From Ilyomonas limi (GTDB taxonomy: Bacteria; Bacteroidota; Bacteroidia; Chitinophagales; Chitinophagaceae): DNA of 64,000 nt. A program made the translations under genes and the position numbers. Under the pieces are notes generated by a model, which saw only the letters and a program-made list of their open reading frames with translations, made no database searches and was not told where the DNA came from. The stretch is from positions 1-64,000 of the forward strand of contig NZ_SZQL01000005.1 of NCBI RefSeq assembly GCF_005233845.1, read 5' to 3'. Positions 57,893 through 60,783 of this stretch are shown piece after piece (positions within the stretch are counted from its first letter, which is position 1; every line of letters begins with the position of its first letter).

Positions 57893-57922
57893 GAATAGTA
57901 GATTGCACCGTAATATTTACTT

Positions 57923-58315
57923 ATGCAGATACCTCCACGATTTATACTTATAGATGATGAAATGTATAGCAATAAGATCAGCAAAACATTTATAAAAAAA
58001 ATGTTCCCTGATGCCGAAATAGTAGACTTTACTTCTCCGTTGGAGGCACTTCAATATATCAATACTGCATATACAACGCGCCCAGTTTCTACAGCCATTT
58101 TGCTGGATATTAATATGCCCGAATTAAACGGATGGCAGGTACTGGAAAAACTACAAGCATTGCCTTTACCTGTCAAAGATTATATATCTGTTTACATGCT
58201 TTCTTCCTCCATAGATCCGAAAGACAAACAAAGGGCAGAAGATCATCCGCTTATTAAAGGCTATATTGAAAAGCCATTATCAAGAGAGATCTTACAGGAG
58301 ATATTTGTTGGATAG
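57923..58315 (+). CDS. single-domain response regulator (CheY-like)
   Basis: The 130-aa product is a lone receiver domain. It has the acidic pair Asp11-Asp12 (ILIDDEMYSNK), the phospho-acceptor Asp62 in AILLDINMPELNG, a Ser/Thr switch in VYMLSSSIDP, and Lys in YIEKPLS. There is no DNA-binding output domain, so it acts by protein contact or phosphotransfer. It follows the histidine kinase gene by 30 nt and is its likely partner. Confidence 0.93.
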   Translation: MQIPPRFILIDDEMYSNKISKTFIKKMFPDAEIVDFTSPLEALQYINTAYTTRPVSTAILLDINMPELNGWQVLEKLQALPLPVKDYISVYMLSSSIDPKDKQRAEDHPLIKGYIEKPLSREILQEIFVG

Positions 58316-58568
58316 GCATAAGCCTGTACACTATTTACCAATATTATATGTTACCCCATCAGATGCGGTGTAGTATAAGTTATTAAAGAAAAGCAGCGCT
58401 ACGTATAACTGTGTTAGCACTGCCTATATGATCGTTATGGAATATGCACTGCCTCCTGGTGAGTGTCTGTTATTTGTAAAAGAAAACATCACTGAAAAAC
58501 TAAAACCCGCTTCCGGATAAAATACTTCAACTCTAAATGTTGACATTTGCACGTAGATAAATGGACCT

Positions 58569-59516
58569 ATGAAAATATGCTCTTTCCTGCCTGCAGCTAC
58601 CCGCATGATCTACGATATGGGATTGCAGGAGTATTTATACGGTGTTACGTTCGAGTGTCCCTCCGAAGCTTTACTGCAAAAGCCCAAAATAGTTCGGTGC
58701 ATGCTGGAAGGTAAAGACTACTCCAGTGCAGAAATTGATGCAATATTCTCTGCCTCCAAGGCACAGGGCAAGAGCTTGTATTATGTAGACGAAACATTGC
58801 TGCAGCAAATAGAACCCGATATTATTTTTACACAGGATGTTTGCGATGTATGCCAGATTGATAGCGCCTGCACATCGGCTGCTATAGCACGTTTACATAA
58901 AAAGCCATTGCTGATTTCGCTTACACCCAAAAGTTTAGATGATGTATATCAAACGGCTGTTACCATTGCCGCTGCTATTGGTGAAGAAAAAGCAGCTTGC
59001 ACTTACTTAGCCGGTCTTACCAGAAGAACAGATGCCATACTTAAGCAGCTATATAAAAATAGAATACCTTTAAAAAGAGTAAGCTTCCTGGAATGGATAG
59101 ATCCGGTGTACAATTGCGGGCATTGGATACCCTATCAAATTGCACAAGCCGGTGGTATAGATATGTTGAGTAATCCTGCCGGTTATTCTGTAGTTATACC
59201 CTGGGAAAAGATAATGCGGTACGATCCGATAATCATTATCATTGCTCCGTGTGGCTTTAGTACGAAGCGCGCAATAGCTGAGTTACACCTCTTAATGAAA
59301 AAAGAAGGGTGGCAACAGTTGCAGGCGGTACAAAATAAGCGGGTGTATGTATTGGATTTCGATTTGTTTACGCAGCCAAGTGCCGGTACATTGGTAAGCG
59401 GTATAGAACTACTGGCCGCCCTGTTTCATCCCACGGTATTTACAGTGCCGGCACAGGTGCAACATAAATACAGAAATGCTTTTGATGAAATGCCTGAAGC
59501 AGTTGCCGTCTTATAA
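58569..59516 (+). CDS. BtuF-like cobalamin-binding/periplasmic-binding-fold protein without signal peptide
   Basis: The 315-aa product has the two-lobe periplasmic-binding fold of BtuF-type corrinoid/siderophore binders (COG0614). It starts with the first strand (MKICSFLPAATRMIYDMGL), then GVTFECPSEALL, PDIIFTQDVCDVCQI, VSFLEWIDPVYNCGHWIPYQ and IIIIAPCGFSTKRAIAEL. It lacks a signal peptide and lipobox, so it is probably cytosolic, unlike transporter binding proteins. No permease or ATPase genes are adjacent. The next gene is a Dph6-like ATP pyrophosphatase 48 nt away, which suggests a shared task. Confidence 0.75.
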   Translation: MKICSFLPAATRMIYDMGLQEYLYGVTFECPSEALLQKPKIVRCMLEGKDYSSAEIDAIFSASKAQGKSLYYVDETLLQQIEPDIIFTQDVCDVCQIDSACTSAAIARLHKKPLLISLTPKSLDDVYQTAVTIAAAIGEEKAACTYLAGLTRRTDAILKQLYKNRIPLKRVSFLEWIDPVYNCGHWIPYQIAQAGGIDMLSNPAGYSVVIPWEKIMRYDPIIIIIAPCGFSTKRAIAELHLLMKKEGWQQLQAVQNKRVYVLDFDLFTQPSAGTLVSGIELLAALFHPTVFTVPAQVQHKYRNAFDEMPEAVAVL

Positions 59517-59564
59517 AAAGGCATTATTTCAACACATTTATACCGATCGATTTACTTATCGTTA

Positions 59565-60296
59565 ATGTACAATATGCATAAAGCTTATTTCAATTGGAGT
59601 GGCGGCAAAGACTCTGCATTAGCGTTATATTATGCCTTGCAAAACAACATCCATGTACAAAAATTATTAACCAATGTAAATGCAGTGCACAACCGTATCT
59701 CCATGCATGGTGTGCGCAGAAGTTTACTGGAAGCGCAGGCAAAAGCCATTGGCTTGCCGCTTGATACCATCGAACTGCCTGAGCAGCCTTCTATGAAGGA
59801 CTATGAGCAGGCAGTGGTACAAAAGTTAACTGCTCTAAAAGAAGAAGGTTTTAACAGCGCTGTTTTTGGTGATATATTTTTAGAAGATTTAAAACAATAC
59901 AGAGAAAACCAGTTAGCCTCCATAGGCTTCAAAGCTATTTTTCCGCTATGGAAAAGAAATACCACCGAACTCATACATACGTTTATAGATCTTGGCTTTA
60001 AAACCATTGTAGTTTGTACCAATGCCGAAATATTGGATGAAAGCTTTGCCGGAAGAGTAATTGACCGGGACTTCCTGAAAGATATTCCAGCGCATGTAGA
60101 TCCGTGCGGCGAGAATGGTGAGTTTCACACGTTTGTATATGATGGTCCTATTTTTCAGCAACCGGTTGAATTTACAACAGGTGAGAAAGTTTTTAGGGAG
60201 TACATAGCACCGAAAGATAACCGGGACCAATGTTTTAGCAAGCAACCACAAACCAGCAATATGGGGTTTTGGTTTTGGGACTTATTGCCTGCCTGA
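59565..60296 (+). CDS. Dph6-like ATP pyrophosphatase (ATP_bind_4)
   Basis: The 243-aa product belongs to the N-type ATP pyrophosphatase family. It has the PP-loop FNWSGGKDSALALYYAL near residues 9-25, VNAVHNRISMHGVRRSLL, FGDIFLEDLKQYRE, and the conserved HVDPCGENGEFHTFVYDGP. In eukaryotes this fold makes diphthamide amide (Dph6); bacteria have no diphthamide, so its bacterial substrate is unknown. It follows the corrinoid-binding-type gene by 48 nt. The start could also be ATG 59574. Confidence 0.82.
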   Translation: MYNMHKAYFNWSGGKDSALALYYALQNNIHVQKLLTNVNAVHNRISMHGVRRSLLEAQAKAIGLPLDTIELPEQPSMKDYEQAVVQKLTALKEEGFNSAVFGDIFLEDLKQYRENQLASIGFKAIFPLWKRNTTELIHTFIDLGFKTIVVCTNAEILDESFAGRVIDRDFLKDIPAHVDPCGENGEFHTFVYDGPIFQQPVEFTTGEKVFREYIAPKDNRDQCFSKQPQTSNMGFWFWDLLPA

Positions 60297-60783
60297 AATA
60301 TAAACGAAATTACTATCGTAAGCTGCCGCTTGTAGTAAAGATATATACCCTTTAGTGACTTTTATGCTCATCAATCCGGTAAGGCGTATAATTTATTTGC
60401 AGTAAATGCATATTGCATAAAGCATAAGTAGTTATTTATTTAGCCGTATAACAATTGTCACCTACAAAACTTTTAACTTATAAAGCAGGTATTTACGCTA
60501 TTGCTTACTTTTTTATTATCAGTTCTTCGTCATACTACGCCGCCTGGTACTGTTGATTTGTTCTTTGATGTAAATGGTAGTAATATGTAATAATTCACCG
60601 GGAGCATAACAGGAGTTATATGCCCGGTTTAATGGTAAAAGGAAGTCAGCATGGCATCACTACAATTTGCCAAAGTATCTTTTGCCTGTTTCTTTATTAT
60701 AAAAAAATTTCAAAAAATCTCCACAGATGTCCAATTTCAGAAATCTCAAGCATTATTCAGTTGTAATCAAACAATATACAGTT
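60297..60783. other. intergenic region, no gene seen
   Basis: AT-rich with stops in all frames. It should hold the promoter of the AhpD-like gene. Confidence 0.45.

Follow-up and report, generated by a model that had tools for sequence, protein, structure and literature searches.

A signal-less BtuF-like protein and a DUF71-B12 ATP pyrophosphatase in Ilyomonas limi: a gene pair probably displaced from a riboswitch-controlled B12 operon

A 64-kb stretch of contig C45 (hereafter the window) was analysed from the genome of Ilyomonas limi, which comprises 5.88 Mb in 70 contigs and is listed as 100% complete. Two intact ORFs on the same (+) strand are the subject of this report, and lie in the window together with the following features:

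58554..58556, + strand: in-frame TAG stop, 15 nt 5' of the BtuF-like start codon (sequence reading)
58569..59516, + strand: signal-less BtuF-like protein, 315 aa, class III substrate-binding fold (PF01497, 5.4e-15; model pLDDT 89.7)
58833..58862, + strand: QDVCDVCQID motif of the BtuF-like protein, residues 89-98 (alignment of homologues)
59112..59132, + strand: NCGHWIP motif of the BtuF-like protein, residues 182-188 (alignment of homologues)
59517..59564, no strand: 48-nt intergenic gap between the BtuF-like and DUF71 genes (ORF coordinates)
59565..60296, + strand: ATP pyrophosphatase of the DUF71-B12 subgroup, 243 aa (PF01902, 9e-42; Dph6 profile, 103 bits)
59598..59615, + strand: PP-loop SGGKDS of DUF71, residues 12-17, the ATP site (ORF translation, alignment)
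60108..60128, + strand: GENGEFH motif of DUF71, residues 182-188 (alignment; motif as defined in the available part of PMC3541065)

Both domains, Peripla_BP_2 and Diphthami_syn_2, scored above the Pfam cut-off, so the pair described in an earlier note on this DNA, a BtuF-like ORF and an ATP pyrophosphatase ORF 48 nt apart, is real; the reading that the note gave of the pair as a whole was supported in part. The neighbours (Pfam scan, 56.4-62.9 kb) are a histidine kinase, a response regulator, a CMD protein, a YCII protein and an ECF-type sigma factor, and there is no transporter among these five proteins. A cobalamin riboswitch was not found in the window, nor a decayed one at E values up to 1 over 58100-59700. 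Bacteroidota-type promoter motifs, in the patterns tried, had no match over 58301-59700, with no -7 box over 57901-60700.

The BtuF-like protein appears to lack an export signal. In the window, the upstream TAG leaves four codons before the ATG and thereby excludes an N-terminal signal extension, and the protein has nothing ahead of the mature domain seen in BtuF-type proteins: its first model residue aligns with residue 2 of E. coli BtuF (chain 1n4a). Reading of the upstream frame gave no export signal in the 10 other related genomes that carry the protein, the frame being closed within 20 codons; in one of them (L037) a start 15 residues earlier is possible, but the added stretch has no hydrophobic core. 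Among the best 80 of 223 confirmed BtuF-like loci, some of them on short sequence stretches, 68 had no in-frame upstream start that would give an extension of 12-60 aa; the other 12 have such a start, with a weakly hydrophobic stretch at L090 and L100. Judged from sequence, the statement of the earlier note that the protein bears neither signal peptide nor lipobox thus held in the window and well beyond it.

The AlphaFold model of the window protein is that of a class III binding protein, and its structural matches include heme-binding 2r79 (Z 23.9) as well as BtuF (5ysc, Z 22.2; 1n4a, Z 21.8). Because heme/iron binding proteins and BtuF match about equally, the ligand cannot be read from the fold. 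The motifs are strongly conserved, with C92 and C95 of QDVCDVCQID invariant in 45 aligned homologues and NCGHWIP present in 80/80 (best 80 of 223 confirmed loci).

The second protein has His188 aligned with the catalytic Glu of the Dph6 EGGE/DxE motif, and scored 103.3 bits against NCBIfam TIGR03679 (Dph6), the cut-off of which is 197.3; structure 3rjz matches it at 4.3e-25. A diphthamide enzyme was ruled out by the motif and the sub-cut-off score, in agreement with the earlier claim that this ATPase does not make diphthamide. The accompanying label "Dph6-type" stands insofar as the protein is a PF01902 ATP pyrophosphatase, but the ENGEFH motif places it in the DUF71-B12 subgroup rather than in Dph6, a separation drawn by de Crecy-Lagard et al. 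2012 (PMC3541065, available part). Two marks of that subgroup, PF01902 with the PP-loop SGGKDS and the ENGEF/YH motif (residues 183-188), are present in the window protein; the third, clustering with B12 genes, is seen in its relatives, the sole B12-type neighbour of the window copy being the BtuF-like gene. ENGEFH-type motifs occurred in 63 of 64 DUF71 sequences from 66 loci (best 80 of 223), with the Dph6 form in none, and in 39/40 DUF71 loci of the relatives. A link of DUF71-B12 to B12 salvage was already predicted in 2012 (PMC3541065, available part), and the B12 connection of the ATPase is accordingly not new.

Co-occurrence of the two genes was assessed across 119 related genomes, the window genome (G000) included. 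The BtuF-like protein was present in 11 and DUF71 in 47, and all 11 BtuF-like genomes have DUF71 (hypergeometric p 4e-5 for the 10 other genomes, a statistic that ignores kinship). In 8/11 (G000, G002, G029, G035, G038, G039, G058 and G061) a same-strand DUF71 gene follows at no more than 0.9 kb; in G060 it comes 6.7 kb further on, and the two genes are ∼26 kb apart in G055 and ∼1.07 Mb apart in G014. Of the best 80 of 223 loci, 66 likewise have a same-strand DUF71 gene downstream, 65 of them within 1.5 kb; none was found in the other 14 within the available stretch, which in some was short. Adjacency is therefore common, and the argument from rare adjacency against the earlier reading fails. 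A BtuF-like protein was absent from 36 of the 47 DUF71 genomes, so DUF71 can work without it. Mirror-tree analysis of 58 loci gave a BtuF-DUF71 distance correlation of r 0.85, which is not decisive because the BtuF-DUF6580 value (0.80) is nearly as high.

In the relatives, the genes follow the same-strand order btuB, DUF6580, BtuF-like, (cobU), DUF71, (cobT, cobS, cobC), marC. Besides the 66 loci with DUF71, the best 80 of 223 included 74 with a btuB-type TonB receptor (counted with one query at E 1e-8), 70 with DUF6580, 37 with cobU, 36 with cobT, 33 with cobS, 32 with cobC and 21 with marC. All 10 other BtuF-like genomes (G002, G014, G029, G035, G038, G039, G055, G058, G060 and G061) have a same-strand cobalamin riboswitch upstream, and one was found at 7 of the 8 named loci examined for it, L120 being the exception; B12 control elsewhere, a check proposed in the earlier note, thus extends to both genes. 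The remark that no transporter genes lie nearby is correct for the window but peculiar to the window genome, since related genomes carry the pair behind btuB and DUF6580, the latter encoding a membrane protein. As a separate observation, a SIR2 sirtuin gene (PF02146) lies between the BtuF-like and DUF71 genes in 23/80 loci (best 80 of 223), for example L131:8950-9630 (6.5e-43), the remaining 22 falling in the range L123-L160. These loci belong to Pedobacter and one Sphingobacteriaceae, and none of the 23 has cobU or cobS. The sirtuin CobB was once tied to cobT function in Salmonella.

Two cobalamin riboswitches were found in the window genome. One (G000:C34:153829-154028) precedes btuB, which is followed after 77 nt by marC (L077:9084-11761), and this arrangement, on another contig, is an operon shell whose middle, including the pair, is missing. 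Because the shell remains elsewhere and the window pair has no riboswitch, the positions suggest that the two genes moved, together, out of their riboswitch operon. The other riboswitch (G000:C56:168777-168970, L076) precedes the small and large chains of a class I ribonucleotide reductase, which suggests B12 control of a B12-independent ribonucleotide reductase. Conservation was compared between the displaced genes and their homologues: the BtuF-like protein departs at 9 of 153 conserved columns (0-12 among 45 sequences, only 3 of which have a higher count) and DUF71 at 3 of 73 (0-13 among 30 sequences). Relaxed selection on the displaced pair was rejected, as these departures are within the range of the homologues, toward its upper end for the BtuF-like protein.

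A pair freed in this way from B12 control might serve another ligand, be it heme, a siderophore or an unknown cofactor. The loss of riboswitch and operon context in the window is in line with such a change, as are the structural ties to heme/iron binding proteins and the distant signal-less homologues that occur outside B12 operons; however, both proteins are still typical at conserved columns and the pair stayed together, and we regard a change of ligand as improbable. The distant homologues comprise 58 matches (135-224 bits, most of the model covered) in 55/395 genomes of the phylum. Among the 20 of 58 matches examined, none had DUF71, DUF6580 or a cob gene nearby, 4 had a TonB receptor on the opposite strand, and no shared neighbour that would explain them emerged. 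Proteins of this wider signal-less family (L191-L210) start like MRIVSLLPSATE and carry GRSHECDYP.

The genes for assembly of the nucleotide loop bear on the reaction of DUF71. CbiZ was found in 0/119 genomes, CbiB (PF03186) in 2 (1/47 with DUF71), CobT in 14 and CobS in 15 (12/47 with DUF71), and the window genome gave no match to any of these four proteins. Seven genomes (G004, G007, G038, G044, G058, G061 and G063; 94-100% complete as listed) have, among the matches listed, a same-strand riboswitch upstream of DUF71 and no match to CobS, CobT or CbiB. Rebuilding of the nucleotide loop by known routes therefore seems impossible there, and DUF71 likely acts on the corrinoid as imported. As 34 of the 66 DUF71 loci (best 80 of 223) also have no cob gene in the available stretch, the function of DUF71 seems not to need loop rebuilding.

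These results can be set against the published idea (PMC3541065, available part), which left the reaction of bacterial DUF71 open and proposed that DUF71-B12 does the job of bacterial CbiZ, providing cobyric acid for CbiB, or acts in another pseudo-B12 salvage route. DUF71 would then strip the loop from pseudo-B12, and CbiB and later enzymes would convert the resulting cobyric acid to cobalamin. According to the same part of that paper, 75/102 DUF71-B12 genes adjoin B12 transport genes, 18/102 adjoin cbiB, and bacterial DUF71-B12 is anti-correlated with CbiZ; our data add the complete lack of CbiZ matches and the 32-37 of 80 loci (best 80 of 223) that carry cobU, cobT, cobS or cobC. The rarity of CbiB and CobS among DUF71 genomes and the seven riboswitch-linked DUF71 genes described above argue against it, and the proposed route from cobyric acid to CbiB should not run in the window genome, where CbiB was not found; a CbiB gene to use the product belongs to that published model of function, whereas the subgroup is defined by sequence without it. 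The cobyric acid reaction is thus unlikely in this clade, and CbiZ replacement as an account of the window pair highly improbable.

We consider it most likely that DUF71 acts with ATP on an imported, intact corrinoid. Chemistry yielding AMP and PPi is a family trait of PP-loop ATP pyrophosphatases, and the relative Dph6 amidates a carboxylate using ATP. The simplest guess by this analogy, close to the amidation idea of the earlier note, is hence that DUF71 amidates a side-chain carboxylate of the corrin, repairing or completing incomplete corrinoids, a guess that we would expect to fail more often than to hold.

Permease genes and the closed upstream frames together address whether the BtuF-like protein might be a periplasmic subunit. 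The window genome, 100% complete as listed, gave no match to a FecCD (BtuC-type) permease (PF01032), which was found in only two of the 11 BtuF-like genomes, G035 and G061. In G035, a riboswitch-linked importer set lies directly upstream of riboswitch-btuB-BtuF-like-cobU-DUF71-cobT-cobS. It consists of a second Peripla_BP_2 protein, which bears a lipobox-like LFSGC, together with a BtuC-type permease and an ABC ATPase, and this side-by-side presence of an importer and the signal-less protein argues against the latter as the periplasmic subunit of a transporter. An importer subunit exported without a classical signal, its permease unrecognised here, is therefore the least probable alternative of all, despite the BtuF-type fold, the shared operon with btuB and a membrane protein, and the few loci where an N-terminal extension could be read.

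The membrane protein of the operon, DUF6580 (PF20221), was found in 100/119 genomes. It is exemplified by L041:7509-8087, and the copy of the window genome (G000:C3:81051-81581) is not riboswitch-linked. FecCD genes were counted by eye as linked when a same-strand riboswitch lay no more than 7 kb upstream of them, using riboswitch matches listed to E 1.1e-17. Among the matches listed, 10 genomes had a linked FecCD (G035, G070, G078, G084, G090, G097, G099, G103, G109 and G111). All 10 belong to the 19 genomes without DUF6580; the 100 genomes with it contribute none (Fisher p 9e-10; the genomes are not independent, the 10 falling in four families). Strong FecCD matches of any kind, linked or not, occurred in 13/19 genomes without DUF6580 vs 14/100 with it (p 3e-6), so unlinked FecCD genes do occur alongside DUF6580.

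A model of the operon DUF6580 (pLDDT 88.7) gave BtuM as the first Foldseek match, at E 0.04-0.05, with no match passing 0.001. In a second aligner, rows 1-19 were S-component-type proteins (Z 13.6-8.2), followed by a drop to 6.6. The predicted model thus shows the six-helix S-component fold, with Z 13.5-13.6 and a clear gap to other folds, although Z values up to about 13 are common among helical bundles. DUF6580 had no sequence match to a solved structure up to E 1, and its fully or almost fully conserved positions, judged over 38 sequences, include no cysteine that could correspond to the Co-ligating cysteine, the invariant residue that defines BtuM (PMC6072759, available part). Given the predicted S-component fold, the first rank of BtuM and the lack of any riboswitch-linked BtuC alongside it (among the matches listed), we put DUF6580 forward as a candidate inner-membrane B12 transporter, which may work like BtuM but is not a BtuM.

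On balance, we favour the view that the window pair is a displaced piece of an operon for B12 uptake and handling, and think this probable without being confident of it. A corrinoid would enter through the outer-membrane receptor BtuB and then through DUF6580, which is probably the corrinoid transporter of the inner membrane; in the cytosol, the signal-less BtuF-like protein would hold the corrinoid and hand it to DUF71, which would use ATP through its PP-loop to modify it, leaving the nucleotide loop intact. Within this scheme, the BtuF-like protein likely binds corrinoid and is most likely a cytosolic corrinoid carrier, and its passing of corrinoid to DUF71 is plausible. A more specific version, which we think less likely than not, is an ABC-free B12 line in which a solitary S-component-type DUF6580 would replace BtuCD behind BtuB, an inward-turned BtuF would act as receiver and DUF71 would amidate or complete the corrinoid. 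If so, a periplasmic binding protein would have switched membrane sides and become a cofactor chaperone.

Genomes in which DUF71 has a cytosolic BtuF-type partner and loop assembly is missing restrict the possible reaction to one on intact corrinoids. In bacteria with BtuB but without BtuCDF the inner-membrane B12 transporter is a gap, as stated in the available part of PMC6072759, for which the same operon provides a candidate. For annotation there is a warning, as the window protein could pass as BtuF and so imply a BtuCDF that the genome seems not to have; BtuFCD homologues were reported in over 90% of B12-importing organisms in a 2009 survey (PMC2667541, available part).

Titles and abstract beginnings among the literature matches listed revealed no cytosolic BtuF beside DUF71. 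The available part of PMC3541065 makes no mention of a signal-less BtuF, and the words "periplasm" and "TonB" are absent from its main text. A later answer on the bacterial DUF71 reaction was not found in the literature searched (PMC5481537 merely cites the 2012 paper), nor was DUF6580 mentioned there, "DUF" and "PF20221" being absent from the main text of the S-component paper PMC11109136. The signal-less BtuF partner of DUF71 and DUF6580 as a likely B12 transporter were thus not found in the literature searched; this analysis adds both, together with the riboswitch operon and the findings that speak against a CbiB route for this clade.

Compared with known systems, the window DUF71 shares its fold family and ATP site with Dph6, the archaeal and eukaryotic diphthine-ammonia ligase, but differs in the change from Glu to His, a score under the curated cut-off and a bacterial host. 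The BtuF-like protein resembles the BtuF of BtuCDF in its class III fold, whereas it has no export signal, its genome has no detected BtuC-type permease, and in one relative (G035) it coexists with a separate SBP-BtuC-ATPase set. DUF6580 recalls BtuM, the solitary S-component-type B12 transporter (PMC6072759, available part), in its predicted fold and its place beside btuB, but not in sequence or in a conserved Co-ligand cysteine. The closest likeness is with DUF71-B12 (PF01902/COG2102) as described in the available part of PMC3541065: although CbiB and the loop-assembly genes were not found in Ilyomonas limi, nor was CbiZ, in keeping with that family, the window protein has its ENGEFH motif, its PP-loop, its bacterial host and, through its relatives, its links to B12 operons.
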